DNA of 64,000 nucleotides, from assembly GCF_000003815.2 (NCBI RefSeq), contig NC_049981.1, forward strand, positions 21,089,645 to 21,153,644, in the 5' to 3' direction. The position numbers and the translations under genes are program-made. Source of the DNA: Branchiostoma floridae (taxonomy: Eukaryota > Chordata > Leptocardii > Amphioxiformes > Branchiostomatidae). The notes below the pieces were generated by a model that saw only the letters and a program-made list of their open reading frames with translations, had not been told where the DNA came from and ran no database searches. This document shows positions 4,723 to 57,646 of the stretch, piece after piece; positions within the stretch are counted from its first letter, which is position 1; every line of letters begins with the position of its first letter.

Positions 4723-4945
4723 NNNNNNNNNNNNNNNNNNNNNNNNNNNNNNNNNNNNNNNNNNNNNNNNNNNNNNNNNNNNNNNNNNNNNNNNNNNNNN
4801 NNNNNNNNNNNNNNNNNNNNNNNNNNNNNNNNNNNNNNNNNNNNNNNNNNNNNNNNNNNNNNNNNNNNNNNNNNNNNNNNNNNNNNNNNNNNNNNNNNNN
4901 NNNNNNNNNNNNNNNNNNNNNNNNNNNNNNNNNNNNNNNNNNNNN
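4723..4945. other. Assembly gap (223 N)
   Basis: A run of N. Open frames drawn through it are meaningless. Confidence 1.
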
Positions 4946-12899: not shown

Positions 12900-14687
12900 G
12901 ACTGGCGGGAAAGACGAACATGGAGCAGGCCCGGGCCGACATGATGGTGGACGGGTTCGGGGACATGGTGAACAAAATGGCGGACTATGTCTGGTACGAG
13001 CCGGACGAGGCGAAGAAGGTAAGTCAGAGATCGACTCGAAAATAAACTTTGCATGTTTCAACTTTCCTGTCTGCATATCTCTGTGGCCTAGCGGTTACGA
13101 AACCCCGCTGCTTAACCATCTGAATCCAATTCCATGGATCTCACTGTGGGCCTTAGTTCGATCCCAAGGTAGCAGCTCAGCTCGGACATGTTGTAAGATT
13201 GCTCATTGGAGCTCATCTGTGTTGGTAGTAATCATAGTACAATGCTTAACTCTCTTCCATCACTACGGTGTACACAAATCAAAATTTCAACGATCGCTGT
13301 CGCCTTATTCAAGATTGATAACAGATAAATGAGTACACCTTAATGTTATAATAAAGTTTAGCAATCCTGTAGGGATACCCTGGAGGCCATCCGGGATCGG
13401 GCTTAAACTCCCCCCGAGTGCTCATGTGAGATTGTCGGGCTGACTGCATTGGCTCCCCGAACAAAACTTGCTAACAGACCTTGCTAGCTACCCGGTCCTG
13501 TCTGGCTCCCAGTGTATGTAGGGACAACGTGATGTCATTGGTCATCGTTGATACGGACGGACGAACAAGAAGCATTGCACTACGTGACAGACGGTCCCCG
13601 AAACGACGACTCGTAAAGATTTCAGTACTTAAATACTGATGAAATTATTCACTGATGGTTAGCTTTGCAATCCGTGTTATCTGTGTTTTGTCACCCCGTT
13701 CTCAATTTTAGTATTTTTCTTTCTGACTTTAGGCAGAAAAGAAGAAGACATTCTATGACACCACGCTGCCAGAGTTCCTGGGTTACTTTGAGAAGCTGCT
13801 TGTGGCGAATAACGGTGGAGACGGCTTCTTTGTCGGCGATGGGGTGAGGCACAACAGCCTTTATGTAGCTTTTCCTACCCGAAGTTCAGTGTGTGATTTT
13901 ATATATGATATGCTGTAGTTGGGCCAGAGACTAATATGTAGCTGACAAACTACAATCAAACCTACCCGTGATCAATCAGGAAATTGTATGCTTGTTTGCT
14001 TTTTAACAATGTAATAATAAGAACCTCTGTCTGGAATAGATAGAATAAATGAAAACCTGGTCTCTGTGGACAGGTGGTAACTCCAGACAGTATTCTTAAT
14101 GCTTGGGCCAATGAGAATATTATGTCCAGGTGGTCCATATGTAGAGGTGGTCACTTGTAGACTGATTTGACTGTACATGTTTCACTTTTCTAATCACGGT
14201 GATATTACTTTTTTAACAACCCTCGTAGTCTGCAATTGTTTGAACTTAGGGTCACAGCTACAGCCTTCTTCGGGAAGGCTGACCCACTACTGTTGACACG
14301 TGACCTTACGGCCACGTGACTTTGGTAGGGGTCGAAGACGCCTGGGACACTGTACCCTGTTAACCACCTGCAGTCACTGATCCGAAGTAGTGGATCAGTC
14401 ATGCTGATGACAACCATAGATTGCTAGTTTTCTACAGCAAGATAGATAAACCTCTCCAAGATAGATAACATTTCTATGGTAAAATATCTAACAACTAAAA
14501 AAAATACTATTTCTTTCCCCAGCTGACCCACGCAGACGTGTTTTTCCTGTCCCTGTCTGACGACATCACCGCAGAGAAACCGGACGTTCTCGGTCCTTAT
14601 CCAAAGTTGGCCGCACTTGCGGAACGCATCAAAACGTACCCGGGCATAAAGGAGTGGCTGGCCAAACGTCCGAAGACACCATGGTGA
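12900..14687 (+). CDS. Sigma-class glutathione S-transferase / prostaglandin D synthase-like, C-terminal exons
   Basis: Three exons join in phase: 12900-13018 (GLAGKTNMEQARADMMVDGF), 13733-13843 (KTFYDTTLPEFLGYFEKLL) and 14523-14687 (LTHADVFFLSLSDDI ... PGIKEWLAKRPKTPW, stop TGA). This is the all-helical C-terminal domain of sigma-class GSTs, cytosolic enzymes that conjugate glutathione or isomerise prostaglandin H2. The family is about 200 residues; only about the last 130 are visible. The first exon needs one base from an upstream exon, so the glutathione-binding N-terminal domain should lie to the left, but I could not identify it. AATAAA at 15057 may end the transcript. The family is clear. 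Whether the gene is complete is open. Confidence 0.88.
13081..13240 (+). repeat. Possible tRNA-derived SINE
   Basis: GTGGCCTAGCGGTTACG resembles a Pol III A-box and AGTTCGATCCC at about 13157 a B-box. The spacing is larger than in a real tRNA and the ends do not pair. It lies in a GST intron and runs into a segment related to the hairpin at 54716-54892. Confidence 0.4.
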
Positions 14688-16328: not shown

Positions 16329-19300
16329 TCAGTCCGAGACCTCCTGACTCTCTTGCCACCAGCGTTTCTCGAACACCATGGTGCAGCAGCCGACTCCGGA
16401 CAGCGGCTCGGGAAGGCCGTGGTTACAGATCCGCCACTCGTTCCTGGCGGGGTCGAACTGGCTGATGACGGACAGGAACTGCTGTGTGTCCCAGCGGTAC
16501 CCACCCAGCACGTAGATCTTCTCCTCCAACACCAGACATGAACACTCGCTCTGGAAAAAAGGAAAGGTATTTAACCATTGCAAACCTGGCACTTATGAAC
16601 GGCTTACCATGGACCATAGTCCTCTTTTCACCCACAGTAAGTCCAATGGTCTGATAATGGACTTACTCAGGGAGGAATGAAGATAGACTTACTGCCTAAA
16701 TTGGTGTAAAGGCCTTACTCTGGATAATAGTCCACCAAAACTAACACCAACTGCCAACAGACATGGCAAAATGGGGTGGACTTACTCAAATTCCTATGTC
16801 CAATCTCGATCCAAGATGTACATGGCCAGTACATAAAGAGTACTCACAGATACTCTCCTAGAATTACTTGGTATTTAGCTCTTGATGCACCATGTGCTAT
16901 CCAGCACCAAAAAACCACGTCTAGCAAAACAACAGATGTTAAAGAACAACAACAGCAACAACAGGTTTACCAGTTATGAAAAAAAAATAACCCACCTGTG
17001 GAACAGGCATGTTGGCCATCACTGCCCACTGTCGTGAGGAGGGGTTGTAGCACTCCACCAGCTTCAGGTCGATCTGCTCTCCGTTGATATTTTTCTCGTT
17101 CCCACCCAGGACAAAGATTTTGTTTCCGACCGCTGCCATGTTGTGCCACGCTCGCCTGGTTACCATGCCGGTTTCTTCGTGCCAAGAGTCGCTGTCAATT
17201 TCATACCTGTGAAAGAAAAACTGTTTTAAAAGATTACAGGACATTGGATGGAACCCTGCAACATTCTGCTGTCAAACCTTTGTGTGTAAAAGAACCCAAC
17301 ACACTTAACAAGAAGTGTAGGGGTATCACTAACACTACATGTGGCTACTTATGAAAAAGCATTACCCGGTGAGCATGAGTGTTTTACCTTTTATCTTTGG
17401 GAAGTTTGAGTTGACTTGGGATGAAAGATTTTTTTCATTTATTCGTCGGCTGACAATACAGGCAGCCAAGGTCACCCAACTAGCCAATGCTACTACACTT
17501 TAAGAGCTGGCCAGCTATCACTATGAGCCAACTTTTATCTGTATGGTAACATCAAGCTCTACAAACTTGATTTTAGAATAAAGCCATATACCTGTAGACC
17601 TTGCTTATCCTCATCATGAGCTCCAAAGAGAATCCACCTGAGATGTAGATGTTCCCTCCAAGTTTACACCCTGCATGTCCATGGAGTGCCTCCGGTAAAT
17701 CCTCCACCCTTGACCAGAGGTTCTGTTTGGGGTTGTAACGTTCTACAGACGACAGACAGTTTTCCGTCTCGTTTCGACCTCCGATTGCGTACAGGTACCC
17801 GCGGGCTTCCACCAGGGCAAAATCGGTCCGGAGTTCAGTTAGCGACGACACCTGTGTCCATTCGTTTCTCCTCGGGTCGAATCTGAAAACGTCGCCGATT
17901 CCCGAACGTCCGAGATCAACCGGGTGGTTCACCGCGTTCTGTCCGCCAACGACGTAAGCAAAGTTGTCCAAGGACGCGACCCTGTGGTACGCCATGGCTT
18001 TGGGTAAAGCGGGACGATCCCAGCGCATCACCTTGGCTTCCATGACTACTTCGAGAACGCTGTCCATGACCCCCAAGTCGCCCTCCCCGCCCACCACCAG
18101 CATGTGTTCCTTTGTGTTCCTGATCCGTGTGCGAGCAGTCTGCAGGGCTGGCTGCATCAGGACATTACTGTGAAAGAACAAGGAGTTCAAGAAGTTCCGA
18201 GTCTCACTCAGAGATGATTTTGACATAGACTGCAAGCATTACAAATCATATCCATATAGACCAGATTTCATGCTCATCAAGTGGTCTTCTTGGGTAAGGT
18301 TGACTGCATAATTATGAATTTTTTGTTGAAAAAGAAAGATGAAGCACCTGTGCTACAATAGGTTGGTGAGTCACTGAATGACAGTATAACTGTATAATAT
18401 TATGTAGACACTTCACGTAAATTGTGACAACATCTGGAAGCAGTGACGCCTATAATTGCAGTGCAACCAGTCGGAATTGCCTGAGGAAGAAGACAGACGG
18501 TCCCCCAAACGGTGGAAATAAAGCAACAGCGGTGTAAAAAGAGTCGCTTATCCACCTGTGGTACTGCCGTGCCTCCTGAAGCACCTGTGGTACTGCCGTG
18601 CCTCCTGAAGCAGGGGCTCGCAGGTGGGGTCTGTCTTCATGAAGTCGTACTGAGACTCACCTGTGGAACTGCATGAAGTCGTACTGAGACTCACCTGTGG
18701 TACTGCATGAAGTCGTACTGAGACTCACCTGTGGTACTGCATGAAGCCGTACTGAGACTCACCTGTGGTACTGCCGTGCCTCCTCCAGTAGAGGCTCACA
18801 GGTGGGGTCTGTCTTCATGAAGTCGTACTGTGACTCCACCACTTCCTTCAGGAGGTCTTCTCTGATCAGGGGAAACCTGATACAGGCCATCACCTGGACA
18901 CAGTGGCACTGTTAGTAAGGCCATGTTGATTTGTTCATATGGAGGACATCCACAGGACATTTTTACACAACCAGTTAATCTCATCTTAGCCTATGTCTTA
19001 TGATCTATCAACCTGATGAAGTTACTTTTGCAAAGACATCCACAGGTGCATTAGGCGCAAAAAGTTTTCAACCATTATACATACTGTAATTCTTACAAAA
19101 CTGGGCAAAATTAGTAAACATGTGCTGTGCATGTACATGTACATGCAGATTGCAAAAAAAATATCTGAAGAGGCTTGGGTTCCACATCCCAATACCCTGC
19201 CCTCAACATATAGTGGATAACAACCCACTGCCCCTACAACCTTAGCTAGGCTTTGAGGCTACCAACAAAGAATATGTCTAGCATTGACCAAGCAAACACA

Positions 19301-22257
19301 CCTGCCGTGCATACTGCAGCCGTCCTGGCTTGTTCAGTAGCCACTGCGCCGCCACGTCAAACAGAGAGAGTTCCCAACAACCTTCCAGATCGTCCCTCGC
19401 CAGGAAGGAGCACAGCTTCATGTAGTCCAGCTCCATGAATTCCGGTTCTTCCGTGAACAGCCGGAAGTTCTTGACGATGTGGGTATCCACGGAGACTCGG
19501 AGGTGGGTGAGGCCGAACGTGTCGGCGATGGACAGCATGGCGCGATGGTTCTTCAGCTCCAGTCCCTCCCGGAGGTAGTTACAGCACACGTCAATCAGCG
19601 ACCTCACCTACATATTGGTGTTGGAAATTGAGCAATGAAGCAATTTGCTTATACTATACGAGGGGCGTGCAATAAGTAATGGTCCTGACCCACTTCCAGT
19701 TGTCTGATCTAAATGAAATTTTGTATGTGTAATAATTCATATCTCTATGGGTTATGTTGCAAAAGACAGCTCTGAACTAATTGTGGTTTCTGATTTACTG
19801 GTGTTTGAACTTAGTCAGGTGCGAAATGGACCAGGTGTGAAATGGAACCAGTTGAGTGTCGCGCAGTGATCCGGTTTTTGTATTTGAAAGGACGCACACC
19901 AAAGAAGACTTTTGATGAAATAAATGAAACTTATGGTGATGATGCCCCATCATATGACCTTGTAAAACGCTGGCATCCTGAATTCAAACGTGGCTGGAAG
20001 TCTGTGGAAACAGCTCCCAGACCTGGTCGTCCCTCTTGTGCCATTGATGAGGCATCAGTTGGAGGACCAACCTGGGGTGTCCTACAAAATCGGTGTCCAG
20101 AGCTGCATCAAACGATGGGAGAAATGCATAACTCTGGGTGATTCCTATGAAGAGAAAGACTAATAACTGTGCCAAGTTTCATTAATCTCCTGCTATGGGA
20201 AATGGGTCAGGACCATTACTAATTGCACGCCCCTCGTATATAGTTATGGAGCAGTTCTGGTCTTGGGCAGTTTGCAGGAACAAAAGGAATGAAATAAAAA
20301 TCATAAAAAATAAAAGCAAAAGAAATTACTCATAAGCATATTTTTTGTACATGATAATACACTTCTACATTTCAGTAGCTCTTGGCCATATAGCTTTGGG
20401 CAATGACTACAGCAGGGGGCTAGTCCACTGGTAGTGGTGTGTGTTCAAATTCTATATAGAAGAACTTTTATTGCTCGACATTTGTACATGGTACAATGTA
20501 TGGCAACGACTGTTACACAAAGTACAAAATAGGTGTATAGAATAAGACTTAATATCCTAATTAACATAACAAGAAGGGCTAACACAAGTCTTTGATATAG
20601 TGTTACAATCGAGTTGGGCTATACATGATTTTCATTACTCTTTCTAATAGCAAAGCATTATGGGAGTTGTGGCATCCAAAGATATATAAAAATCTGTCTG
20701 TAGCATGGAGTCTCTTGAAATCTGCTGTACTGTATTCGAGAAATGTGAATAGTTCATTACGTAAAATAGCGTATCTAGAACATTCCATTAAAAAGTGAAA
20801 TTCATCCTCAATATGCTTTGGACAAAAAGGACAGAACCTTTGGTCAGGGGCTACATTGTACATATCTGCCTGTTTCAATATTGAATTTATGGCTACTGAT
20901 TCTTAACTAAGTAATGGCTTTTCAAATTTCAAAATTATTTATATCATAAAGGTATGTTTCTTGTTCATAACATTCTTTTGACTTGCTAAGGAAAGACAGT
21001 TGTGAATTGTTTTCAATAGAATTAAACCACTTTTGTATATATGTATCTTGTAGCCGGAGGCGTAGTTGGTTGACAATATAATCTACATTATAAGCCTCAT
21101 GTTTCATCCATATGTGTCCAAAGCCATGGTAACAGGGAATGTCTTTAACATGATTAATCCAGTCTTGATTATCAGTAAGTACAGTGTTGTACGCATCGCG
21201 AAGCAAAGAGTCCTCAGGTAAGTTTACCAAATGGTGCCAGTATTGAATGAGCTGAATTCTAGCAGGTATTATAATGGGAAAAATTCCTGACTCTCCTCGC
21301 ACGCCATCATTAGATGATTTTTAATGAAGACCAAGTAGAAATTTCTGAAAACGTATATATGCATACTGTTTCCAGAATGCTGAGTGCTAAGCAGAGAAAG
21401 CAGCATGTAGTACCAGTCTTTGGTATGACTTGGCCGAGGATCAAACTCACAACCTACCGAATGCAAGGCGAATGCTCTACCTACTCGACCATAATGCACC
21501 AGTCCGTCACCCATATAACCCAATCAATATGGCCTAAAAAGTTTTCAGCAGCTGACCTGTAGATGGTTGGCTGCCTCCAGCACGTCCAGTACGTTGTCAG
21601 GTGTGATGCGCACCTGCGCCGTGTACGCATACTCAATCACATGGTGCAGGCCTACCGCTGTCACCTGGATGGGGAGGGGGGCGGATATTTGAGATAGATA
21701 GATTCAGATACAGAAAAAATCTGTTTTCTACTATATATGTATATTGCAGAGTGTGTTGGCTATGCAAAGTATAGTCCTGTGCTGCACTACCCTGGGTACC
21801 ATCCTATTTCTACCAGGGCTCCTTACACTTCCTACCATAAAGCCCCAGTAGAAATAGGATGGCACCCAGGTTAGTGTTGCATTGAACTGCATTTTAGCAA
21901 GGACGTTATATTATATCACGTCCTTGTTTTTAGGTAGTGTTTTAAAATCTTAATCTTAATGAAAGTATTGGATTGCTTCTCACTACTGACCCCTAGCAGT
22001 TCTATGCAGTCTTCTCGACTCTCCCTCAGTCGTCCAGCGAACATGGCACGGAAGTAGTCCGTGAGCGCAGCCATCACCACCCGGTGCACGTGGAAACTCC
22101 TACGCTCGGCAGTCAGCGTGACATCGCACAGGCTGTCCTCGGCGCGGAGCGCGTTCAGACCCCGTAGGAGGTCCTCGCCGTGCACCTTGGACTTGTAGGT
22201 CCGCGTCAGGCTGGCGGGAAGCCAAAGGTCCTCAGGACGAACTGGAAGGGACGTCAT
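16329..22257 (-). CDS. BTB-BACK-Kelch (KLHL-type) protein
   Basis: Seven minus-strand exons join in phase to a 606-residue protein, the usual KLHL length: 22257-21991 and 21664-21557 (BTB: DSLCDVTLTAERRSFHVHR, VTAVGLHHVIEYAYTA), 19607-19302 (BACK: CCNYLREGLELKNHRAMLS), 18893-18763 (end of BACK), 18167-17592, 17206-16996 and 16550-16329 (Kelch repeats with paired Gly: YVVGGQNA, YAIGGRNETE, YISGGF, FVLGGNEK, YVLGGYRW). Stop TGA is at 16331-16329. KLHL proteins are substrate adaptors of Cullin-3 ubiquitin ligases: BTB binds CUL3 and the propeller binds substrate. The closest vertebrate relatives are probably the KLHL9/13/26 type, from memory only. Introns hold a mariner, a LINE fragment and a SINE. 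Exon 4 and exon 7 have tandem partial copies next to them. Confidence 0.92.
18555..18762 (-). repeat. Minisatellite derived from KLHL exon 4 and its splice donor
   Basis: Downstream of exon 4 on the minus strand, a 34-bp unit with the donor CCACAG|GTGAGT is repeated; candidate exon ends are at 18763 (true), 18729, 18695 and 18661. A larger piece of exon 4 (coding MKTDPTCEPLL) is also copied at about 18600-18650. Thirty-four is not a multiple of three, so using a distal donor would shift the frame. Confidence 0.85.
19659..20236 (+). mobile_element. Internally deleted mariner transposon
   Basis: Terminal inverted repeats CGAGGGGCGTGCAATAAGTA and TACTAATTGCACGCCCCTCG (about 33 bases in all) are flanked by TA on both sides, the mariner target duplication. 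From 19842 the frame reads VECRAVIRFLYLKGRTPKK and SVETAPRPGRPS, the N-terminal helix-turn-helix region. A second frame reads SYKIGVQSCIKRWEKCITLG to a stop at about 20163, the C-terminus. The catalytic core between them is deleted, so it is non-autonomous. It lies in a KLHL intron. Confidence 0.93.
20603..21302 (-). mobile_element. LINE (non-LTR retrotransposon) ORF2 3' fragment, degenerate
   Basis: Two adjacent minus-strand frames are broken between 20921 and 20879. The first reads IQLIQYWHHLVNLPEDSLLR. The second contains FCPFCPKHIEDEFHFLMEC, the C-x2-C...H...C motif found at the C-terminus of many LINE polymerases, followed by RYAILRNELF. The reverse transcriptase core is absent, so this is a 5'-truncated dead copy within a KLHL intron. 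Confidence 0.75.
21362..21522 (-). repeat. tRNA-derived SINE copy B
   Basis: On the minus strand GGTCGAGTAGGTAGAGC (A-box) is followed by GAGTTTGATCCTC (B-box) and the shared body CTGCTTAGCACTCAGCATTC. It matches copy A at 10316-10455. Confidence 0.75.
21791..21870. repeat. 30-bp inverted repeat with 20-base loop
   Basis: CATCCTATTTCTACC at the left pairs with GTAGAAATAGGATG at the right. Arms at 21791-21820 and 21841-21870 match with few exceptions. It is intronic in the KLHL gene. Confidence 0.8.
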
Positions 22258-22379
22258 GGTTCCATGTTGGAGTCCACCCTCGAACTTGTGTGTGACAAAA
22301 AGTAGGTTGTCAAGAAGGTACAACATACAGCAATGTCATATAGATGAACATGCAAATATAATAATATAAGTATCGCTGT

Positions 22380-24762: not shown

Positions 24763-27700
24763 ATGTCTGTGAACTTGAGTCTGGTAGCTGTAGCTAGCCG
24801 ACAACTTCTTCAAGCTGCCAGACGATCAGCTGAATGTTTGAGCCTCCAACAAAGACGGGTGAGTGAAATATTATCACCGTTTTCGAAGCCAAATGATTTG
24901 CCCGTGGGAGGGGGGCGTCAGTTTACTAATTTGGTTGGAGGTCATTTTCAGCCCCTAAAGCTATGCTACGTAATATTTGGACAATACAAAAAGTAGATAT
25001 CCCTGCCATTTCTTTACATAGTAAGCTAAGTCTTCCCTTTAGCATTAAATATCAAGGCTCAGTGAGAGAAGTTGCAACATCAGTGCATCAAATAAACATG
25101 TCAGATGATGTCTACAAACTGTGATTATACATGGCAAGAAATTGGACATTGTGAAACATGGGGCATTTCCAAACCTAACAGAAGACCTAACGTAGAATGA
25201 TATTGCACCCAAGGGAATTCACCGATTTTTGCAACACAATCCACCTTACATGCCAATCAGGGAGGTTTTTTTTTTTACTTGAATTTCATGTTGTCTGGGC
25301 TGGGACAGTATACACATTTTCCATCAACCCATCGTCCAAAACCCTCCACAGCCTAACAAGGGACACACGCCATCCTGACACAAGAGGGACACCGAGTCTC
25401 AAGCAAACCTTACCTAACGGCATTAGCACGGGTGGTCCTTCTTAACAAGACACACGCAACCAAGTTTTTCCACCTTACGTTACGAGCTGCGAGCCGCGAT
25501 TTTTTCGTCAACCCTTACGNNNNNNNNNNNNNNNNNNNNNNNNNNNNNNNNNNNNNNNNNNNNNNNNNNNNNNNNNNNNNNNNNNNNNNNNNNNNNNNNN
25601 NNNNNNNNNNNNNNNNNNNGGAAGCCTGTCCGCTATCTCGAGCTGCGATGTTTTCGTCAACCCTTACGTTACGGAAGCCTGTCCGCTATCTCGAGCTGCG
25701 ATTTTTTAGTCAACCCTTACGTTACGGAAGCCTGTCCGCTGTATCTAGCTGCGATTTTTTTGTCAACCCTTACGTTACGGAAGCCTGTCCGCTATCTCGA
25801 GCTGCGATTTTTTAGTCAACCTTTGTTGTCTGGGCTGGGACAGTATACCACATTTTCCATCAACCCATCGTCCAAAACCCTCCACAGCCTAACAAGGGAC
25901 ACACGCCATCCTGACACAAGAGGGACACCGAGTCTCAAGCAAACCTTACATAACGGCATTAGCACGGGTGGTCCTTCTTAACAAGACACACGCAACCAAG
26001 TTTTTCCACCTTACGTTACGAGCTGCGATTTTTTCGTCAACCCTTACGTTACGGAAGCCTGTCCGCTATCTCGAGCTGCGATTTTTTAGTCAACCCTTAC
26101 GTTACGGAAGCCTGTCCGCTATATCTAGCTGCGATTTTTTAGTCAACCCTTACGTTACGGAAGCCAGTTCAAGCCAGTTGCGTGTCCGCTATCTTGAGCT
26201 GCGATCTTTTCGTCAAACGTTACGGAAGTGGTCCTGTGTGGCCCGTTGACGGAAGTGGTCAATTATACGCAAAATCCAAACACTTAGGGCCCCAACGAAT
26301 ATCGAAACAGTCTATATAAAGACACGAACATATGAAAAAATGGAGCATTTAATACCAGTCCTATAATCTTTTAAGGAGACACAGCCCGGTGTGATTCTTT
26401 TAGTTCATGTTTACCAGAATCGTTGGAGAATGCCCCACTGAATGACCAGCAGCATGCACGCCTGGCTTGGCACGTGTTGAGCAAATGTGCTTCCAAGTGT
26501 AAACTCGAAGGTCATACTACACATTTTACCAGAGAAACATTTTTTCGAAATGTTTTAGATTATGCTATATGTAATATTTTTACGAGAACTTTGCTTAACA
26601 GAAGCTCGGTGACAGCTTGTGTACTGATGACTGCTAAATTCTCCCAACAGCCGGATTTTTCCAGCTGTGGGCTCGCCAGCCTCACGTTTCTTCCCCTTCA
26701 CAGCGTTCTTTAGAGGAAAATTGGACATGTAAGCTCCCAAAGTTCTGCACAACATTTTGAATGTCGGAATATTAGTTCTCCTTCTGATGGCCAAAAATCA
26801 CTACCTAACAAATGAAGTCGATTTTGGTGGTCATTTTCAAAAGCTGAGCACCAAACTGGGTGCAACGCAGACGTGATAACGCCAGAGGGGACGTCACTTT
26901 ATACAGCTTGGAACGCCGTGGTAGCCACACAGGACCACTTCCGTAACGTTTGACGAAAAGATCGCAGCTCGAGATAGCGGACACGCAACTGGCTTGAACT
27001 GGCTTCCGTAACGTAAGGGTTGACAAAAAAATCGCAGCTCGAGATAGCGGACAGGCTTCCGTAACGTAAGGGTTGACAAAAAAATCGCAGCTCGAGATAG
27101 CGGACAGGCTTCCGTAACGTAAGGGTTGACTAAAAAAATCGCAGCTCGAGATAGCGGACAGGCTTCCGTAACGTAAGGGTTGACAAAAAAATCGCAGCTC
27201 GAGATAGCGGACAGGCTTCCGTAACGTAAGGGTTGACTAAAAAAATCGCAGCTCGAGATAGCGGACAGGCTTCCGTAACTTAAGGGTTGACTAAAACATC
27301 GCAGCTCGAGATAGCAGACAGGCTTCCGTAACGTAAGGGTTGACTAAAAAATCGCAGCTTGAGATAGCGGACAGGCTTCCGTAACGTAAGGGTTGACTAA
27401 AACATCGCAGCTCGAGATAGCAGACAGGCTTCCGTAACGTAAGGGTTGACTAAAAAATCGCAGCTTGAGATAGCGGACAGGCTTCCGTAACGTAAGGGTT
27501 GACTAAAACATCGCAGCTCGAGATAGCGGACAGGCTTCCGTAACGTAAGGTTTGACTAAAAAAATCGCAGCTCGAGATAGCGGACAGGCTTCCGTAACGT
27601 AAGGGTTGACGAAAACATCGCAGCTCGAGATAGCGGACCACAGCAGGACCTGGACTTAATTGACCACTTCCGTAATGTAAGGTTTGACGAAAACATCGCA

Positions 27701-36902: not shown

Positions 36903-39900
36903 ATGACGGAAGGGTGGAGGGTCCCCGCCTTACCCATACATGCTCAGACATTCCTGCACTCTACAACGCAATCCCCCCACCCGCCGTATTTAGAGCGGCC
37001 GGAACGCACGGGACGGAAATCATATCCGAGAGACAAATTTAGAACCATCTTGTTTGTCACTGGAGGAGGACGCGGGGAAGAAATACTAGCTCGTTACCTG
37101 GCCCTCCGACGGACCAACACAAGCGTCACGGTAAAGATTTAATTGTTTTATTGTCTTTTTATGTCATATGTCAATATGGTCACTTAGATGTTTGTCTACG
37201 ATAGTGTAGCTTGTACTGTAACATGGTGTGATAGTTCACTATGTACTGACGACGGTTGGCTCGCCGTACTGCCCGTTTTGGTGGTTGAATAGGTGCGGAA
37301 TTTTGGAGGTAAATCCTACAGCACTTGTTTTGGCTGTGAAGCATGCAGCCGTTGTTTAGTAACCGACTCATCCCAAATGTGAAAAAGTAGGCTTGTTGGT
37401 TTAAGAGCAATAAGAAGAAATTTTCATATTCAACCTAGAGTCAGATTTTCGATTTTTATCAGACAAAACGATCGACGATTGCGCCGACGTCACTGATTTG
37501 TGTGTTACCACATCTAGTGGTTGTTGTGTTAACGATTGACTGATGTTACTGCAGGAAAGGAAACAATATCTCACCCAAAGGAAAACAAGGCTAGGTACCG
37601 CGGAATGCCAACATGCCACCATACCACGTACTTGATTGATGTGTGACGTGTGCGGCCGCACCCAAACCAACCTGCCCTTTTCGGTTTTACCCCTTAAATT
37701 CACGACTCAACCATCAATTTCTTTGTACGATTGCTTGTCTTCTACCAGCGAAAATATTGACAATATTTCTCCTGAAATCGCGTTGCTATACATATGTTGA
37801 TTATATAAGTGGTAGAGCGGTGAATTGGTCATGGTCATCCGTGTTTATTTGGGTGAACCAGTTTTACCTACTAAACACTTACCACTCCTCAGCTATCAAT
37901 TCCTTTGTACTATTGCTTGTTTTTGTAGCCAGCGAAAATGTTGACAATATTTCTGCTGAAATTGCGTTAATACTTATCTTAGTTATAATAGGTAGAGTGG
38001 TAAATTGGTCATGGTCATCCATGTTTATTTGGGTGAACCAGTTTTACCTAGTAAACACTTTCCCACGTACCGTGCTCTTCAATTTTGTCAGCTCTGGAGG
38101 TCGCTATGCCATAGGTTAGCGACCTCGGCAATGGGCTATATATAAAGCTGAAGAAAACTGGTACTTTATCAAGGCTCTTTGGATGTTGTAACGTTGTACG
38201 TTTGGTGTCAACGTTGCAAATAGCAGAGTTCAACAATCCTTTCTACGTGCGGGTCACCGTGTGGTGTGAACATGGGGGGCCTGGAGTTCTGTTAGCCGGT
38301 GTAACTTTTAAATTTATCAAAAGATGATCGGGAATTAATTTTTTACATCTGATCTCAAACATCTCTGTCTCTCTGTGTCTCTCTGTCTTTCTGTGTCTCT
38401 GTATCCCTGTGTTTCTCTGTGTCTCTCTGTCTCTCTGTGTCTCTCTGTATCTCTCTGTGTCTCTCTGTGTCTCTGTCTCTCTGTGTCTCTCTTTGTCTCT
38501 GTCTCTCTGTGTCTCTCTCTCTGTATCTCTGTGTCTCTCTGTATCTCTCTGCCGCTCTGTCTCTCTCTGTCTATATGTATGTATAGCCTCCTTCGGTCAA
38601 TATTAACCATGCATATGGTAAAATCCTAATTGATATCAGCCAATATCAGCGTTACATGTACCTTTACATATTAAGTTAAACTTGAAGTTGCTTTAAGACC
38701 ACACTGAATTCATTCTACAGTAGACATCCTTTTCAAAAACAATTGTGCCAGGTTGTTATTCCAAATGGATAAATTTAACCGTGAAGAAAAACAAACGAAT
38801 ATAAAAGTTGATTGGCAACCCTTCCTAATCTCAAAGCAGATGTGATGAGATGTAATCTCAATACATGAAAACGTCTGAAATTGTCGGAGAAGATAGCCAC
38901 TGGCTTTAAGCCTAATGTCTGGCATACTGCATTTCCATATTCGTACAAGTCAGGACAAAATACTGTATCGGTACTTGATCTGCGATGCTTCCGACAGGCT
39001 ACAACGGCCGTCAAAGTACCAAAGTTTCTGGACGGGGAAATCAAGAAAGGCTCACGAAGGGTTTAAATATTCTAGGCTTAGTTGACTTTGCTTACAATAT
39101 AGGATCATTTTAGATTAAGAATGATGTGTATGACATGATATGAGGGGAGGGGTGCTAGTGCACATGTATGGTGGTGGGGGGGGGGGGGGCGACCGTATCC
39201 AAAGCCGCGAAGCAAAGAAGTTGAAGCCTGCTAGCCCCTATCTCTCATTGCTCTAAGATTGTGAAAACATTTTCCTTTCAGATGCCGGCGGAGGAGATAT
39301 CCGAGGAGACGCTGGCCTTCATAGAAGTGATCAACATCGTGGTCCAACATGTGGCGGAGATCAGGAGCCTGTTGGACTACTACAGGTTAAGGCTGGGTTT
39401 TTCTTATTGGACGGTCCAGAAAAAAACGGACCTGAAAAAATTCGGTGGATCGGATGTTGGACCTATTAGAAAATAAACAGATTATATGATCAGGAATTCA
39501 CGCGTTTTGGGGCTTGCAGGTTGAAGAAAATAATGAAGTGCGAAGTAAAGTAGAGTCTATAGTCATTTCTACCAAGTTATACCGTCAATCGTACAGAGAC
39601 CGATAGCGTTTTAGGATTTTAAAACGCCAGTGTAAATCTATTACTTTACCAAACACATTTCTTTGCAGTGAAATGGACCATTGTTATGAGTATCTTCCAT
39701 ACACAAGTTTTCACATACTGAATCAGGTCCAGGCTCAGGTTCGGACCTGGACCTGATCCTCTGGCCCTGAATCGGACCTGGACCTGAATTTTCTGTACCG
39801 GTACCCACCCCTACTACAGGTACATCACAGCGGAGAAGCAGAGCAAATGCGAGCGGCTGGCGAACACGGCGATGGACTCCCTGAACGAGCTGAGGGACAC

Positions 39901-42900
39901 ACTGGCAGAGGCTAAAAAGCAGCGGGAACTGGAACTTGAGATGATGGTAAGAAGTTTGATTTGTTATCGGCACAAGTTTGTGATTTATTTTGTGTGTGAG
40001 AGGTTATGTTGGTTCGATTAAGCTAAGAGCACAAGCCGCCGTACGTGCAATTTGTCCGTACGTTTTTTGGAGGCCACGTCCGCCACGTATTTCTGAAAAC
40101 GTTCAGGCTGTACATGGCAGGCGCGTCGCCCGTACTGGCACGATGGCACACAAAATTTTGCCTGCACGTAAAGTTCTACGGCGTGTCTGCGTGCTTCAAA
40201 ATCCGTCGGATTCTCTACGAGTTCGTACGGATTACCACTTAAGGATCCCAAAAGATTGCCCACGTTTTGGCACGTAGCTATAGAGAGCACACATTGGCAT
40301 GGGTTGTGCCCTTGGCTTAATATCATCCGCGCGCACACCAATCGTCGTCCGTTTCCGAAAACTGTTTTGTAGATCGTAAAATAAACAGAAACATGCCGTA
40401 AATTAAAAAAATAACGGAAAATGGATACCAAAGACAATTTCAAAGTCAAAGAAGACAGCAAAAGATAAAGAATCTGTTGTTTGCCAAATACCATTAACTC
40501 AAGTAACTCCATGGATATGATTTTGGAAATGGCCAGACGGTTCAGGCAGAATCCACTACCTTTTGTTAGTGATACTAAAGAGAGAAGGTTTGCATATCCT
40601 AAGTATCATTTACTGAAATTGTATGGGAAAATTAGGAGCTGATTTTAACGGACCAAACACCCCTCTGTAATACGCGACACGCAAGTGTGTTCTGGTGTAA
40701 CTTACAGTACCTCACAACTTATCCTCCAATCTAGCGGGGAAAGCTGGTGACAGAGATGGTTGACGTGACGTACGATTTCCACGATGACGTCATCCGTAAC
40801 CCAGCAAGTCGCAGCGAAATCGAAGAGATGTTGAAAGGTTACAACATCGTGGAGTACAACATCCCGCCGCAAGGGGGCGACCCTGACATGGACATTGTGT
40901 ATAAGGTAACAAAGTCATCCAGTCCTTAATGATTAAGCTACGCTACGCTCTTCAAAAAGAGCTCAAGAAATTTCTTCAGCGCTATGAACAATCAAGTCAT
41001 ACAAACGAATAGAGTCTTGTTTTCTCTGCCATGACCGGTGGAGGAGTTGCTCTTTATTGTGTGTTTTTTATCTCATGAACATTTATCCACCAGGTTATAA
41101 ATATCTTCACTTTGAAAACCAGTGTGTTTAAGAGATCTCTAGTGTAGCACTTCTAGTTAAGATATGCAAGGAGTGCATGATACTGAAATATGTTGCACTG
41201 GAGATGTCTTCAAATGCTTTTTCAGGGTGGCAGATATATATGACCTGGTGGATAATCTTAACAAATCAGGCATCTTTCTCATCTTTTTTAATATTATAGA
41301 GTTTAACTGAACCTATAACACAACTTAACTCTAAACAACGTGTTGATGTTAATATCCTGTAGTTGACAGGGTTGCCAGAAGATGTGGCCCGTGCAAAGTT
41401 CGCCCTCCAGGAAAAGTGTGACGCCATGGCAGCGGAGTCCAGAAAGAAAAAGCAAAGAGGACAGCAAATTGACAAGTATTGGGTATGAGTTATTCTCCAA
41501 GCAGAGGTTCGGCTCCGGCCTTTTTTAACGTGTTTTAGGGGGTTTTGTCAGGTCTTCTAATTTTTTAGTGTTATTGTTATAACTGGTAATCTGGCTGGCA
41601 GACATAAAGAAAACAGCGCAGAGTAGCCAGCCCGATATAAATGCCTCCAATGTGTCAAAACACAGTAGCCCCCGAACCTATGCTTGGAGAGTAGGTATGA
41701 GTTAGTGTGCTAGTGGAATTATAAAGGCTGTTTTATATCATAAGATTTTTTTTTTTATATAGTATTCTAATGAAAGCTCTGTGTTGGTAGAATCCATAAC
41801 TGTTGAGCTTTGTTTCAATCCTTATAGTAGTAATAAACATCATCTTCATGATTTTCGAAAATTTTCATCATTATGTGCAAGGACATGTACAGTTAGGACT
41901 AGTGACAGCGAAGTATGCCCAAGATTACCACTCAGGGGTGTACATGTACGTGTAAATTTTTATCTCAATTTTATCTTTCCCACCACTAATATATATATAT
42001 ATATATATATATAACGCTTTTTAATCCATATACTTTTTTGTGTGCAGACGTCAGTTGACCCCAACAAATGGAGAAAGACTCGGTTTATCTACGAGTTTGA
42101 AGCTAAAGACATTGATGGCAACATGATCAGCTTTGAGAAGTACAGGTATGTTATGTCGATGATGGTTTTTTTGTTTGAATCCGTTAAGTTTGTTTATTCA
42201 GGTTATGAGATACGCCAAAAAGCAGTTACTCAAGCAACTGGATAATAATTATATCATAAAATTTGAAGTCTCCGTCAATTTGAAGTGGAGTAGGGTCAGT
42301 TATTGATTCCCAGACACCGCAAGGGTTTTCAGTTAATACTTCCTCAAATATTTCTTTAGCTGTTAAAACAAAACTGTTAGAATGCAAGGCAACAAACACC
42401 GACGAGGTAATGTCCACTAGACTCTAGTCCTGGTATTTTGATATCAAAAACGTAAGAACTTCAAACTAAACCGTGACATTTTTCCCCATATATTTTCCTA
42501 TCTTCCTAGGCACAGGTGATCATTTTAAAAAAAATCTATGTGCCCTAACAAATATACAAATGTATTCGACGACACATTGACTGATGACAACTTGTATGCC
42601 ACCATCAGGGGGCAACCGCTGCTCATCGTCAACGTCGCGTCCAGATGTGGGGGTACGGACCGGAACTACAAACAGCTGATGGATCTGTACCGGAAGTACG
42701 GAGAAAAGGGACTGAGGATTCTGGCATTCCCATGCAATCAATTCCACAATCAGGTGAGTGATACTATAATGTGATCAAGTACATTGTTTAAACCTATGCC
42801 AAAAAAAGTCACTCAAGCAAAAGTGGTTATGGTATCTGGACGTCTAATCTACATCGACGTATTGTTTAAACTTTTTTTTCGGGTATGCATGCTCTTTTCC

Positions 42901-45900
42901 GTAAGTCTTAAGGCAGGCCTGTTTAATTTCCTGTAATTCGTAGGGAAACTATTTCATTTTACCTAATTCGTAGTGGGATGAAGCGTAAAGCGTTGGTAGC
43001 CTTCGTGAATTTAACGTAATTAAAGCGTTACGTGAGCAGCCGTCCCGAATTAAGCGTAAATCGTTTTCAGGACCCCCCGTGCAGACCCTTTTTTTGCCTT
43101 TAAGTGTGAATATGGGACCAGAACGACACATTACCCTTTTGCCAACTCAAAGGCCCAGTTTAAATTGGCCCAACACCAAGGTCAACTTGGCTTGGATTAG
43201 GGTTGGGATTAGGGATTAGGACGTTGGGCCAAGTTGGTCTCATTAGCCCTGGATAATCTCCAAGCAGATTCCCGGTGGCATAAGATAGTATCAAAGCTGC
43301 CAATGAGTATCGGGTCAGAGGAGGTCCAGAGCCTCGGAGGTAGGCAGCTTGAACTATCTTATCTGCCACCGGGAATCTGCTTGGAGATTAAGCTATGGGC
43401 TGAGTCGATTACTAAGTTGATGCCAAAGTATCGATCCAACATGCCCATAAACCTACAATAAGCTAGACCATTAGCAAAACTGACGGTCCAGTTAGAAGCA
43501 CAGAGAGAGATGAGAGAGAAGAAGAGCACATGTGACCAGATACTGACGAATCTGAAGCGGCGCGGGTATACCGATAGAGAGACAACAACCGTTGACAGCA
43601 AAGCTCATGTCTGTCCTCTCCTTTTCTTCAGGAGCCATACATTGAGAGGGACATCAAGGAGTTTGTTACCACCCGCTATGGAGTAAGCTTTGACATGTTC
43701 AGTAAGATCCACGTACTCGGACCAGAAACCCATCCCATATACAACTGGCTGGTGAATACCACACGTGGGACACTTGGAGAGTGAGTATAGATAACATTAC
43801 TTAGTACAGTACTGTATACAGATGGAGAACAACGATTTTCAAAAATGTAACGTTAACTGTAAGTGAAGGGCTCTCTCTAGCCAAAGCGACTTTGATAGCT
43901 TGGAGCCCAGCATTGTTCGATAGTCCGCTCCCAAAGGCTGCTACCGTAGTGACCTACAGGAACGGACTAAAGCGAACAAGACTGGACTCCAGGCATGGAA
44001 AGACGTATTTACTTGCATATTATTAAGCGTGTCCTCCTGATATATAATATTAACTTGATTAAGTAAATACACTGTACGTCCTCCCATGCCTCGGCTAGGC
44101 TTTCTCCAGGACGAGTCCCTCCGCCCAGCATGGAAATGTGCTTGTTGGGAAAAAAAAATCCAACCTGTTTATGAAATATATCCGAACTTCATGACATGAA
44201 ATTGATGAAAGTTAATTATAATTACAGAATATGAAAATGACGAAAATCAGCAATATTGGCTTCAAACAATGAGTTGTACAGAAAAATCTAAAGCTGTATA
44301 CAGCCCTGATATAGCGTCAATTATGTTTCGCACACCGTGGCTTCTATTTTCTTTTGCTTTTTATGCTCCATCATGTTTTTAGTTTAGGCCCATGCATGGT
44401 TTGAAATAATTGTGGTGAAATTTTCTTGTCATTACAACTGCAAACAAGTTGTCATTTAACAATACTACATGTATATGCATGGCTTATGTGTATGTACAGT
44501 CTGTAGCTTTATGTTCAAAATCAATTCTGAAGAATGTAAGGTCATCTAAGTTGATTTCTATATTTTGTTATGTGGGCGAAGCCACACATTTATTATGTGG
44601 GCGAAGCCACACATTTAGTATTCTCTACAGATATTCCACCCTACCAATCAAAACTCAGAAAAAAATGGAACCTGTAGCATGCAGTCCATGTTTCCAGCTT
44701 TTTGATTGGCTAACATTCTGACTGTCTGGTGGATACGTCAGGGGTAAACCTATCAACGCACAGATCACAAAATGGCACTCGGCAGCGCAGTATCACAAAA
44801 ACGTTGAAAATGCAGCAAGTTCAGAGCATCTAATCGGCTAAATAACAACATAAAAATGCCCCACAAAGAATATTCTAGTATTCTGTCCAAGTTTTAGTGA
44901 AATACCTTCGATTATAAGCGAGAAAAATAGCCAGCGGAAGCTCGCGGGTTTTTCAAGCAACGCAATACATTTTTATACCTGTTAAAACGTGCGCACGTAA
45001 CATGTTGTAGCACTGGCTCAATGGGATTATTCTGGCGTGGTAAACCAACGCTCCGGGATCGAATCCGTGGATAGACAATGTTTTTTAATTTTTTTTTCTT
45101 TTTGCTGCATTTTCGCGAAAATGTTGCCTTCCTTGTTGCTTCTTTTCCTGCGATTTTTGCTTTCTTTTCCCTTCGCCCACATCCTGCATTTTTTTCAAAA
45201 ATGTTGCCTTTCTAGTTTGAACTAGGAATTCCAAAATCATGCCAATCAGTGATGTGTTTCATAATTCTTGCTCAATGCTAGAATCATATACATTGTAACC
45301 TGTTGATATGAATATTAACATTCAACAACTAACAGCTATATGCAATAGGGTGTTGTAAAGGTCTTCATGAAACTTTGTGTTGCCATGTTGTTTCAGCATC
45401 ATCAAGTGGAACTTTACAAAGGTAGGACTTCCAATCTTATAAGATTCACAGATCTACTAGTTCCATAAGAATTTTGACGGTCTCTTATTTTCTTCCCTTA
45501 TTTCCAGTCTCATCAAGTGGAATTTTACCAAGGTAACATGTGAGGTGTGATCAATGTTACGTGCTTCAGTCTGATCCACTGGTGATGTTGCCTAGCTTAG
45601 AATGTCTGTAGTATGTTGTTTTATATATTGTTCTTGTTATGTTTTGCTTTACGTCTTGGTCCAATGGTGTGTAGTTACATGTAACGTCACCAGTATCTGT
45701 TTTCGTCTGAAAATGTAAAGGATCATGCGCTTTTTGTACACTGTATCTGTTTGTACCTAAGTTTAGAACAGTAGTTCAATGGTAAAATTTGTGTCTTTCA
45801 AAATCAATCTTATTGAGGTAAGTTTCCTTCTGAAATGTCGTTTCATTGGAAACCATCCTTACAATTGAATGAAAAATGGCCTTAAGTTTGGATAACGCTT

Positions 45901-47045
45901 CTTGCCAAATGCTCAATATGTTGAACATCTAAGGATAAATCTAATAGTATTATCATGTCAGATCGTAGTTCAGTGACACTATATATAGTTTTAGCTTATT
46001 GTGAAGGCTGCTGGACTAAAGGCAGTAGTTAAATAATCATAATTTTATTGTTTTTGTTGTCCCCTTAACTCTCCTCAGTTCATTGTTGACAAGAAAGGCA
46101 GGGCTGTCAATAGGTACGGACCCAACGTCGACCCTGAGGTAAAGTCCTGAGCTCCTATTACAAGTGTGTTAACTTTGTATCACATTGCTCTACATGTATG
46201 TCAAACTGTTTCTGGATGCAACTTAGATACAGCAATATGCTCGCTCACACTTTCCGAGTGCACATGCGCACTGTCAGTGCATCAAAAATTGTATGTCGTA
46301 TATCAATATACCAGTATCCAAGGAGCTTTAATATCAGGTATAAAAGCTCCTTGATATACCATATATTACCCACAATTTCTGTTGCAGCGCATGTGTACTT
46401 AGAAGTGCGAATGAGCTTGATTGATTTGAAAGTACAGAGGCCGTTGGTTAAACCAAATCAGGGGCCTAAATCATTTGTCATCAAGATAATTACAAGTCAA
46501 CTAATAGTCATTGAAAGACATAGATCATTGAAAAATATGTGAACTTTTTGGATTCTCCATGGCCTGGTCTCAACTGTGGATCCCATCTTTACTGATTTGC
46601 TGTTTTTGACAATGATCTTAATGTTGTACAATCTTATAGCAGGCTGTGGCAGAACCAAACAAGGTTTTTCTGTACAAAGACGGATTAATTTTTCAGGACT
46701 AATGCAGGGCCACACCAATTTAATTTGTTGGTTCTCAGATTGAAAAAAAACCAACCCTTAACGGGAAAAACATTATGATGAAGCCTGGGGACCAGGCTTG
46801 TGCCATGGTGCACTCAGTTTTATGGGGTGAATAGTCATATTTACAAGTTGTACTCTGTACCCACTAGCTTTATGATGTCGTCTTGCTATATTTTCACTTT
46901 TAAAAATCTGAGAACCAATGGCCTAAAAAAATGCCTTAAGTTTGCCATTGTATGACAATCGTGCGACATATGTAACCAGGTCCTTTAAGTGATCTTGTCT
47001 TTTCCTCCACAGAAAATTGACCCTGACATCCCGAAATACCTGTAA
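36903..47045 (+). CDS. KH-like domain / Cys-type glutathione peroxidase fusion
   Basis: Eleven exon positions join in phase to about 419 residues: 36903-37130, 39282-39385, 39820-39946, 40735-40905, 41363-41482, 42048-42145, 42609-42753, 43632-43780, one of 45397-45421 or 45508-45532, 46079-46138 and 47013-47045 (TAA). Residues 262-419 are a GPX4-like peroxidase ([40 protein letters not shown]). The tetrad is Cys296 (TGT, in VASRCGGT, replacing selenocysteine), Gln331, Trp385 and Asn386. Residues 158-235 resemble a KH fold ([13 protein letters not shown] ... VEYNIPP ... [18 protein letters not shown]) without GxxG; residues 77-150 look like a coiled coil. Family role of GPx: reduction of hydroperoxides. 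Exon 1 is the least certain; exon 2 begins with ATG and could be an alternative start. The GPx part is firm; the fusion rests on matching phases. Confidence 0.75.
37713..38063. repeat. Diverged 182-bp tandem duplication
   Basis: ATCAATTTCTTTGTACGATT at 37713 recurs as ATCAATTCCTTTGTACTATT at 37895, and the next 170 bases stay similar (shared GTGAACCAGTTTTACCTA). It is intronic. A long plus-strand open frame here is a by-product. Confidence 0.85.
38361..38580. repeat. (CTCTCTGTGT)n-type microsatellite
   Basis: CTCTGTCTCTCTGTGT units with variation over about 220 bases. It is intronic. Confidence 0.95.
40018..40320. mobile_element. MITE copy 2 (family of 4126-4530)
   Basis: Ends TTAAGCTAAGAGCACAAGCC and GGGTTGTGCCCTTGGCTTAA are inverted repeats. 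The interior (CCACGTATTTCTGAAAACGT, GATGGCACACAAAATTTTGC) is shared with copy 3. It is intronic in the GPx fusion gene. Confidence 0.85.
41491..41693. mobile_element. 203-bp MITE inserted at a splice donor
   Basis: The left end TATTCTCCAAGCAGAGGTTC and the right end (reverse complement TACTCTCCAAGCATAGGTTC) are terminal inverted repeats. The 9-base sequence GGTATGAGT flanks both sides (41482-41490 and 41694-41702) and is the target duplication. Its first base is the last base of the exon ending at 41482 and the rest is that exon's donor. Confidence 0.9.
41988..42014. repeat. (TA)n run
   Basis: AT dinucleotide repeat, 33 bases before the exon starting at 42048. Confidence 0.9.
43254..43389. 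repeat. Inverted repeat with 47-bp arms
   Basis: AATCTCCAAGCAGATTCCCG at the left pairs with CGGGAATCTGCTTGGAGATT at the right; the arms are about 47 bases around a 41-base centre. The end resembles the CTCCAAGCAG family at 41491. It is intronic in the GPx gene. Confidence 0.85.
44570..45182. mobile_element. Inverted-repeat element containing Pol III box-like sequence
   Basis: The left end has two copies of ATGTGGGCGAAGCCACACAT with a 25-base period (44570 and 44595). The right end has CTTCGCCCACAT (45171-45182), the reverse complement of the start. Within it, TGGCTCAATGG (45014) and GGATCGAATCC (45056-45066) resemble Pol III A and B boxes and are followed by T-runs. The plan matches the element at 22380-23331. 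It is intronic in the GPx gene. Confidence 0.55.
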
Positions 47046-49077
47046 TGGCTGATGGAATGTGATGGCGTATTATAGGCCCCGACAGTCAAAGGACAGGCTT
47101 ATATCATGGCAAACTAGCATGAAGACTGTCTGGAAGACTGGATGCCCTTGGTAATAAACTGCTGGTGACATTATGTGTCTACTACGTGTACATGTACGTG
47201 TGCTTGTAATTGTCAGCAGTAATACACTGCCATGTTATACAAGTTATATACTGCACAAAAATAAGCCCAAATGATGAATCACCTGGGATGAATAAGTGTG
47301 AACATTTTGAACATTCAACACTAAAGATTTGTGTTTGTACCTGACATTTCCGCTACACAGCAGCTCCTGCAAAATCACATTTCATTATCAAATTATTATA
47401 AGTTTGATATGACTTACAAACTTAGAATTATGGTTAATTACTGAGATGATACAATGTAACTTACTATCATGCAGCTATTGTATAGGATTGTAAACTGAGT
47501 TGTGGTAGACCCCTGTACAGAAACACATAGTGAGTTATAATCTTGAGCTATGAAAACCGAAAAAAAGTGCAAGAAGGTCAATGAATACAAGACATAGTAA
47601 TGTTTGAATAATCCAAGTCATTTTTTACATTATTTTACCAGCACATTGTATGAATTCTATTATTTGCAATTACATGGACAGAAGGCAGAAGCAAAGTAGG
47701 CCATGATCGATTGCATATGGAAGATACAAAAAATCTGCACATTAGTGTGTATATTAAGAAGGCATTACATTGAAGGCACATACAACATGTACAACACAAA
47801 CATGTTTGTGTTTGCTATGATCAAGGCAGAAGAGTTGATATCACAATCCCAAAGTCAAAACATCGTAACTTTGCAAACTGTTCTCAAGGCTTTACTTTAA
47901 TAAATTTTGTAAATCTTTGACTTGCAGTCCCATGTTGAAATTTGTTTAACGTTACCTTTGCCTAGATTCAAATGTCTAGAATGGTATCATATTCAGAGGG
48001 TACTTTTAAGAGGTTGTCTTGGCCTCTACAAATTTGACATGAGCACAACATCATAAATCATTGAATCAGAGCAAAATGTAGTGTTATTTCATGATGAACA
48101 ATAAAGTCTAGTGAACACAGCAATGCCTGAGTTTCACATTATTTTTATACTTACTGTACAGTTAGTAAACATATTGTTCTTTGGATGGCCAAACCAGTAA
48201 AGATTAAACTGGAGTGTACAATAAGTCTTTAACTTTTTTTACAAATTGATATGCAGCCACTACAGTAACTGTACAGTAGGATTTTTATATCATTTGACAC
48301 AATAGAGAGATATTTTTAGAATTTCAACACTCACTACAGCTTTCAAGCATAGGTTAGATGCAACAGTACATTTGTAACATGAACTCTCATAATTCCACCG
48401 GGTGCCACAATACTGCCACATATCAAGAAAAAATATGTGTTTAATTTTTAGTGATTTAGAGAGATGTACAATGTACCAATGCAGCATCAGTAATCCAGAG
48501 GTATATACGTTTCAGATACATGTATTTAGGTGTTCAAGACAATCTTCAGCAAGCCTTACTTTCTACATGTATAACAATGTTTTTTTCTTATTAAACTTGG
48601 CAGTATTATGGCACCCAGGGTAACTATGAGAGTTCATGCTAATGACTACAAATATGATCAGTCAACAATAGCGGTCCAGTGGCACACATTTTTGTGTCGC
48701 TATATCATATTAAATACATCATCAAGCTGCAAGCTCACACACTTTAAATTTTGTCAATGATGTTGACATACATTGATACAATGTACTTGTTAGACATCAT
48801 TTACATGTACAGTAACATTACATAGTTGACAGAGATACCATTTTCTGCTCAATCTCACAGCAAATAAATTAAAAACACGCTGCACTTCTTAAATGCATTA
48901 CTGATAAAATAATACACTGTGCCAGTCCCTGCAGTCTGTACCATATATGGTATGGCCAAAATTGAGGATCACAGCCATTGGTCTGTACTGGTTTAAATTC
49001 ACACTTTAAACATAGGAGTTGATGCAATGTAGGTTCTGATTGGTCGATTGCAGTTGCCATGATGACCATTAGCAACA
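47046..49077. other. GPx-ABHD18 tail-to-tail intergenic region
   Basis: AT-rich 3' flanks of two convergent genes. Apart from the GPx poly(A) signal I see no gene, RNA or clear repeat. Confidence 0.5.
47153..47158 (+). terminator. Polyadenylation signal of the GPx fusion gene
   Basis: AATAAA lies 108 bases after the stop codon, a usual 3' UTR distance. Confidence 0.7.
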
Positions 49078-57524
<8,447 letters not shown>

Positions 57525-57546: not shown

Positions 57547-57646
57547 NNNNNNNNNNNNNNNNNNNNNNNNNNNNNNNNNNNNNNNNNNNNNNNNNNNNNN
57601 NNNNNNNNNNNNNNNNNNNNNNNNNNNNNNNNNNNNNNNNNNNNNN
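57547..57646. other. Assembly gap (100 N)
   Basis: Placeholder run of N immediately upstream of the ABHD18 start codon; it may hide that gene's promoter. Confidence 1.

Follow-up and report, generated by a model that had tools for sequence, protein, structure and literature searches.

A probable fusion of a degenerate, vigilin-like KH module to a GPX4-type peroxidase with an active-site cysteine

The stretch of DNA analyzed here (the window) comprises 64,000 nucleotides of contig NC_049981.1 (positions 21,089,645 to 21,153,644, forward strand) and contains a candidate gene that would join a KH-like module to a glutathione peroxidase (GPx). The gene model consists of ten exons on the plus strand (39282–47045) with nine GT–AG junctions and a single 343-residue frame that closes at a TAA (47045), with an AATAAA downstream at 47153. 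The end phases of the model are, exon by exon, 2, 0, 0, 0, 2, 0, 2, 0 and 0. An earlier sequence-only reading had claimed that every junction into the GPx exons is consistent in phase, and this was borne out by the GT–AG borders, the single frame and the 0/0 phase of the 41482/42048 junction at which the two halves meet. We consider it probable, on the sequence comparisons described below, that this is one fused gene of vigilin-KH and GPX4 origin.

The amino-terminal part of the model is encoded by four exons. Exon 1 (39282–39385) carries the ATG, immediately 3′ of its acceptor, and the amino end of the protein, and terminates in a weak donor (3.5 bits; donor scores were computed with a donor weight matrix and ranked against the 4019 GT dinucleotides of the window). 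Exon 2 (39820–39946) encodes a predicted long helix (residues 35–77). Exon 3 (40735–40905), which starts in phase 0, aligns with a KH domain from strand 1 through strand 3 and includes the site at which the canonical GxxG loop has been replaced. Exon 4 (41363–41482) supplies the carboxyl-terminal KH helix, also by alignment, and a basic linker, RKKKQR, with an isoelectric point (pI) of 10.2; its donor is likewise weak (4.2 bits). The linker would presumably resemble a simple nuclear signal.

The GPx domain begins with exon 5 (42048–42145), which starts in phase 0, and continues through exon 6 (42609–42753), bearing the active-site Cys220 together with Gln251, and exon 7 (43632–43780). The catalytic Trp309 and Asn310 are encoded by a 25-nt microexon, 8a (45397–45421; donor 8.3 bits), which is followed by exon 9 (46079–46138) and by exon 10 (47013–47045) with the stop codon. 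Microexon 8a has a tandem duplicate, 8b (45508–45532), of identical length and phases and with a 6.7-bit donor, whose product (DLIKWNFTK) differs from that of 8a (DIIKWNFTK) solely by an Ile/Leu exchange. Inclusion of both copies would shift the frame, and therefore a transcript would be expected to contain 8a or 8b, not both. One GPx intron also holds an imperfect inverted repeat (43250–43394), which is probably a hairpin element because its matches to microRNA families, on both strands, fall far below the gathering scores.

Further upstream, positions 36903–37130 (plus strand) provide an ATG, 76 open codons and a phase-0 donor of 5.2 bits at 37130. The 76 residues matched no Pfam family, and the DNA matched only itself in the genome to which the window belongs (513 Mb in 431 contigs). 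The start that had been proposed at 36903 was not confirmed, given that the frame is open but without a Pfam family and that an ATG stands directly behind the 39282 acceptor. The segment may nonetheless be a 5′ exon, either coding or part of the 5′ untranslated region. A long CTCTGT-type simple repeat occupies 38350–38580, upstream of exon 1.

With respect to the carboxyl-terminal half, residues 175–343 correspond to a peroxidase of the GPX4 type in which Cys occupies the selenocysteine (Sec) site, as judged from profile and structure-database matches. Specifically, the Pfam family GSHPx (PF00255) is matched with an E-value of 8.3e-42 and 141.6 bits (cut-off 27), and the top PDB matches are two designed GPX4 variants (204–207 bits), followed by entries for GPX4/phospholipid hydroperoxide GPx at 182–197 bits. 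The scores for GPX7 (132), GPX8 (126–127) and GPX1 (2f8a; 77) are lower, which places the domain closer to GPX4 than to GPX1, GPX7 or GPX8 by this measure. The Sec/Cys-Gln-Trp-Asn tetrad, which we take to be the catalytic set of GPx enzymes, is intact in the form of Cys220, Gln251, Trp309 and Asn310, and the enzyme would reduce peroxides through Cys220. The domain contains only one other cysteine, Cys249. The block that reads FVTTRYG, at residue 266, lacks the resolving Cys by which thioredoxin-dependent Cys-GPx enzymes would be recognized (the corresponding block being presumably FVCTRF in plant GPx). Nor does the gene have the mark of a selenoprotein, as the active-site codon is a Cys codon rather than TGA. 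No selenocysteine insertion sequence (SECIS) was detected at E ≤ 1 between 36000 and 52000, and a remnant SECIS was rejected on the same result.

Relatives of the GPx half were sought in the same genome, where 18 GPx exon matches were listed, two of which belong to the candidate fused gene itself. The closest gene by identity, on contig C8, is 62, 51 and 63% identical across three exons and 59% identical over 153 joined residues. It is a GPX4 gene with TGA at the active site and a match to SECIS_1 of 32.7 bits (E 0.0021), below the gathering score of 35; its first and last exons were not found. All five inner introns (5/5) are in the same place and phase in the two genes. The leading intron is in phase 0 in both, seven codons before an aligned Trp in the window (TSVDPNKW) and six codons before it in the C8 gene (ATGGEEW), so that exon 5 starts within one codon of the corresponding GPX4 exon. 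A GPx exon on contig C19 extends uninterrupted over the position of one of these introns. From these shared introns we infer that the GPx half arose as a duplicate of GPX4 at the DNA level and not as a retrocopy.

The KH-like module was evaluated with a hidden Markov model (HMM) from which the segment's own best match had been left out. This profile was constructed from four KH domains collected by a PDB search seeded with the human vigilin domain 2ctk, and accordingly leans towards vigilin. The segment scored 16.1 bits, as compared with a maximum of 9.1 bits in 5000 shuffles (4153 reported), 2.1 bits for the GPx half and −1.8 bits for the reversed KH segment, and hhalign returned a probability of 86.9 against the profile lacking the best match. 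Narrower margins were obtained with an HMM of 17 KH domains from the same genome (10.4 versus 7.9 bits for shuffles) and with one of nine vigilin repeats from that genome (13.3 versus 11.2 bits). Judged by these profiles, a degenerate type I KH domain occupies residues 82–159, in agreement with the earlier description of a KH-like fold lacking GxxG. A chance open frame was rejected for this part on the leave-one-out profile and the vigilin match. NCBIfam offered no name for it, and an AlphaFold2 model of exon 3 alone gave one helix and two strands at low confidence (mean predicted local distance difference test, pLDDT, of 57.9).

In terms of ancestry, the comparisons point to vigilin. Among 177,635 distinct PDB sequences, the segment KLVTEM...AAESR (residues 80–161; the query was one residue longer) had a single match, human vigilin 2ctk, which aligned over the whole domain with an E-value of 0.19; a longer query returned 2ctk at E 0.12 and, in the helical part, BGL14 at E 9.3. 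Of 37 KH matches in the same genome, 30 were scored (seven had no loci), and the third-last repeat of a locus on contig C14 ranked first, with 77 as against 52 for the next. The identification of this locus as vigilin rests on 13 KH matches in a row and on likeness to human vigilin domains, and we take its third-last repeat to be the 12th in a 14-repeat numbering. BLASTP of the KH segment against this repeat alone gave E 5e-7 with 23 of 78 residues identical, and in tblastn over the 20-kb vigilin locus the same repeat was best (E 1.7e-4). Moreover, exon 3 and the exon of the vigilin repeat start at the same point, four residues before an aligned Val (exon 3) or Ile (vigilin), in phase 0 as read from the DNA in both. 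In the reverse direction, when frames of the vigilin locus were compared with the window by tblastn (E ≤ 0.05), only repeat-like stretches were listed, in a search insensitive enough that exon 3 itself was unlisted. Two segments of the window (54712–54886 and 13235–13315) resemble one frame of the vigilin locus when translated, in part with interrupting stops, and are probably an interspersed repeat.

The region preceding the KH domain is predicted to be helical. AlphaFold2 modeled exon 2 (39821–39946) as a single 38-residue helix (residues 4–41 of 42) with a mean pLDDT of 97.1. The coiled coil previously proposed here was not confirmed as such: exon 2 does form one predicted helix, but a crude heptad score over residues 1–82 was equalled or exceeded by 231 of 1000 shuffles. 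As to where exons 1 and 2 came from, no Pfam family exceeded its cut-off, no PDB match was convincing and no second genomic locus appeared among the matches listed. All four matches of the amino-terminal module in the genome at E ≤ 1 (five candidates scored) belong to its own locus, on which basis a repeated or mobile element was rejected; this search also missed the vigilin repeat, and is blind to copies at about 30% identity.

Taken together, these observations suggest a route by which the gene could have formed. A GPX4 gene would have been duplicated, would have exchanged Sec for Cys, and would have had its first exon replaced by a helix and a degenerate, vigilin-derived KH domain, to yield a single-copy gene. 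The new amino end would have been acquired by exon shuffling at phase-0 introns. Shuffling is suggested because the vigilin repeats examined start behind phase-0 acceptors and the corresponding exon of GPX4 itself starts in phase 0. The amino-terminal module would thus join the GPx body at the point where the first exon of GPX4 formerly joined, and the KH and GPx parts would be spliced into one mRNA.

Several observations weigh against this account. The donor that would join the two halves (TGG/GTATGA, at 41482) is weak, in that 9.4% of the 4019 GT dinucleotides in the window score at least 4.2 bits; within the model, only the donor at 39385 is weaker. A transcript read through 41482 would reach a stop just one codon later, and the interval between the KH and GPx parts holds an AATAAA (41832). 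On the KH side, no Pfam KH model exceeded its cut-off (the best, KH_PARP14_3, reached E 0.11 in the carboxyl-terminal part), the PDB E-values for 2ctk are not significant alone, and identity to the vigilin repeat is only 29%. In addition, the KH module is split by an intron absent from the vigilin exon. The shared exon start is also less specific than it might appear, because all 11 vigilin repeats inspected, of 13, have a candidate phase-0 acceptor 3–7 residues before the match; it is thus a sign of vigilin-type exons in general and not of a particular repeat. On the GPx side, a single exon on contig C19 (47% identity over a longer match) surpasses the C8 exons by single-match E-value.

The weak donor, the read-through stop and the AATAAA at 41832 together leave room for the KH part to be a gene of its own. 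We regard as rather unlikely the resulting arrangement of two adjacent genes, in which a small KH protein would end at the read-through stop and a separate Cys-GPX4 would use an unrecognized first exon. The 0/0 phase of the junction is of limited help here, since it would fit with a chance of about one third in any case. The interval between the two parts speaks against two genes. Traced upstream from 42048, the frame runs into a stop (42012) without having passed an ATG. Seven phase-0 donors in 41483–42040 have an ATG ahead of them, and their scores lie between −1.8 and 1.4 bits, as compared with 4.2 bits at 41482. With this stop and no usable short first exon between the parts, the GPx half needs an exon from further upstream. 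Third codon positions are rich in G+C in both parts (0.72 and 0.63), which favors coding but is silent on joining.

Vertebrate GPX4 uses alternative first exons. A comparable arrangement at this locus, in which 36903–37130 would be spliced in phase 0 either to 39282, giving a long KH form, or to 42048, giving a short GPx form, is in our estimation unlikely. It draws on the open 76-codon frame and the 5.2-bit phase-0 donor at 37130, and has a precedent in the alternative first exon of Gpx4, as described in the available part of that report (PMC4510835). The lack of a Pfam family for the 76 residues counts against it, and the exon may be untranslated. This arrangement overlaps with the favored explanation, as the fused KH form would still exist.

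Assuming a fused gene, what the KH module contributes is a separate question. The sequence-only reading had suggested a tie between peroxide reduction and RNA or ribonucleoprotein (RNP), which the loss of both GxxG glycines does not support: where vigilin reads IIGQKGRDIRKLM, the loop positions of the window read R-N-P-A. In the pairwise alignment, helix 2 reads SEIEEM in place of the RDIRKLM of vigilin, such that basic residues are now acidic; a MAFFT alignment left the loop positions unchanged and placed helix 2 differently. Overall charge is no argument by itself, because the pI of 4.4 for the KH segment is accompanied by one of 4.9 for the human repeat. Changing the first GxxG glycine disrupts binding, or eliminates it, in the KH domains covered by the available part of one source (PMC7949032), and with that residue required there and the motif gone here, RNA binding by the module is unlikely on sequence grounds. 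A KH module that had kept its RNA binding and carried the peroxidase to RNPs or to ribosomes at the endoplasmic reticulum (ER), an alternative to a docking role for the module and not to the fusion, is therefore given very little weight. The parent protein does bind mRNA, both in the cytosol and at the membrane of the ER, and the five carboxyl-terminal KH domains of HDLBP had a lower affinity than the full-length protein for one RNA that was tested, according to the accessible portion of that study (PMC9117268). The basic linker RKKKQR, with its pI of 10.2, would likewise favor RNA binding; the lost GxxG, the changed helix 2 and the requirement for the first glycine (PMC7949032, as available) stand against it.

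Our tentative preference, somewhat short of an even chance, is that the helix and KH module function in docking or addressing by way of protein partners and not in binding RNA. Amino-terminal addressing of this enzyme has a parallel in mouse Gpx4, for which a nuclear address is provided by an alternative first exon (PMC4510835, in the part available). A more specific and quite unlikely version is that the former vigilin repeat, no longer able to hold RNA, parks the Cys-GPX4 on vigilin-containing or other RNP complexes, or at the ER, and would there afford local protection from lipid or protein peroxides.

The surroundings of the gene were surveyed by comparing open frames of the window with Pfam (63 of 105 shortlisted, 20 of those singly for placing matches). 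A KLHL-type gene lies on the minus strand, with a Kelch exon at 17576–18238 and a BTB exon at 21919–22335, and further Kelch, BACK and ABHD18 frames were found in the same scan; an ABHD18-like hydrolase exon (51675–52019, minus strand) had an E-value of 9.5e-5. Runs of N occur at 4723–4945, 25520–25619 and 57547–57646, the last two exactly 100 bases long, and are probably assembly gaps.

If the gene is transcribed as modeled, it would illustrate cleanly how exons are shuffled at phase-0 introns, with relatives of both parents still present in the same genome. Ahead of the exon just downstream of its first intron, GPX4 would have acquired a folded domain at its amino end, and a KH repeat would have been reused without its nucleic-acid loop. 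The intron concerned is, we presume, the same one at which alternative first exons attach in mammals. The earlier assertion that no animal GPx with a KH architecture has been described agrees with the literature listings, as distinct from animal protein databases: among the matches listed for KH domain plus glutathione peroxidase, for amphioxus GPx and for a vigilin–peroxidase fusion, no such architecture appeared. The fusion is likewise not described in the accessible parts of a paper on amphioxus KEAP1–NRF (PMC11989980) or of a selenoprotein survey (PMC3473315). Domain shuffling in amphioxus is a familiar subject, as far as the portions of the literature available to us indicate, and if the DNA is from an amphioxus, the event would be unusual in its parts and not in its kind.

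The gene can finally be compared with the systems it most resembles. The PARP14 KH-like domains share with the module the weak carboxyl-terminal match noted above (E 0.11), which is below the cut-off and partial, whereas vigilin aligns across the whole domain; a PARP14-type origin was rejected on this weaker, partial match. Both PARP14-type KH matches of the genome lie on contig C4, in open frames of 849 and 907 residues. The third-last KH domain of vigilin/HDLBP (2ctk) is the best relative among the scored KH domains of the genome and in PDB, and its exon, like exon 3, begins in phase 0 at the corresponding residue. The KH domain of the window differs from it in having R-N-P-A at the GxxG site, two extra loop residues and an acidic helix 2 in the pairwise alignment, and an additional intron, and the 343-residue model contains one KH domain where vigilin has a tandem array of about 14. 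The likeness to GPX4 lies in the 59% identity to the C8 gene, the shared introns, the Cys/Sec-Gln-Trp-Asn set and the best PDB matches, whereas the window gene has Cys for Sec, no SECIS found and a 174-residue amino-terminal module upstream. As with the nuclear Gpx4 form made with exon E1b, whose location is set by exchanging the amino end while the Gpx4 body stays the same (PMC4510835, in the part available), a new amino end would here be placed on a GPX4 body; E1b, however, is part of the Gpx4 gene itself, while the gene described here would be a separate paralogue with a domain taken from another gene.

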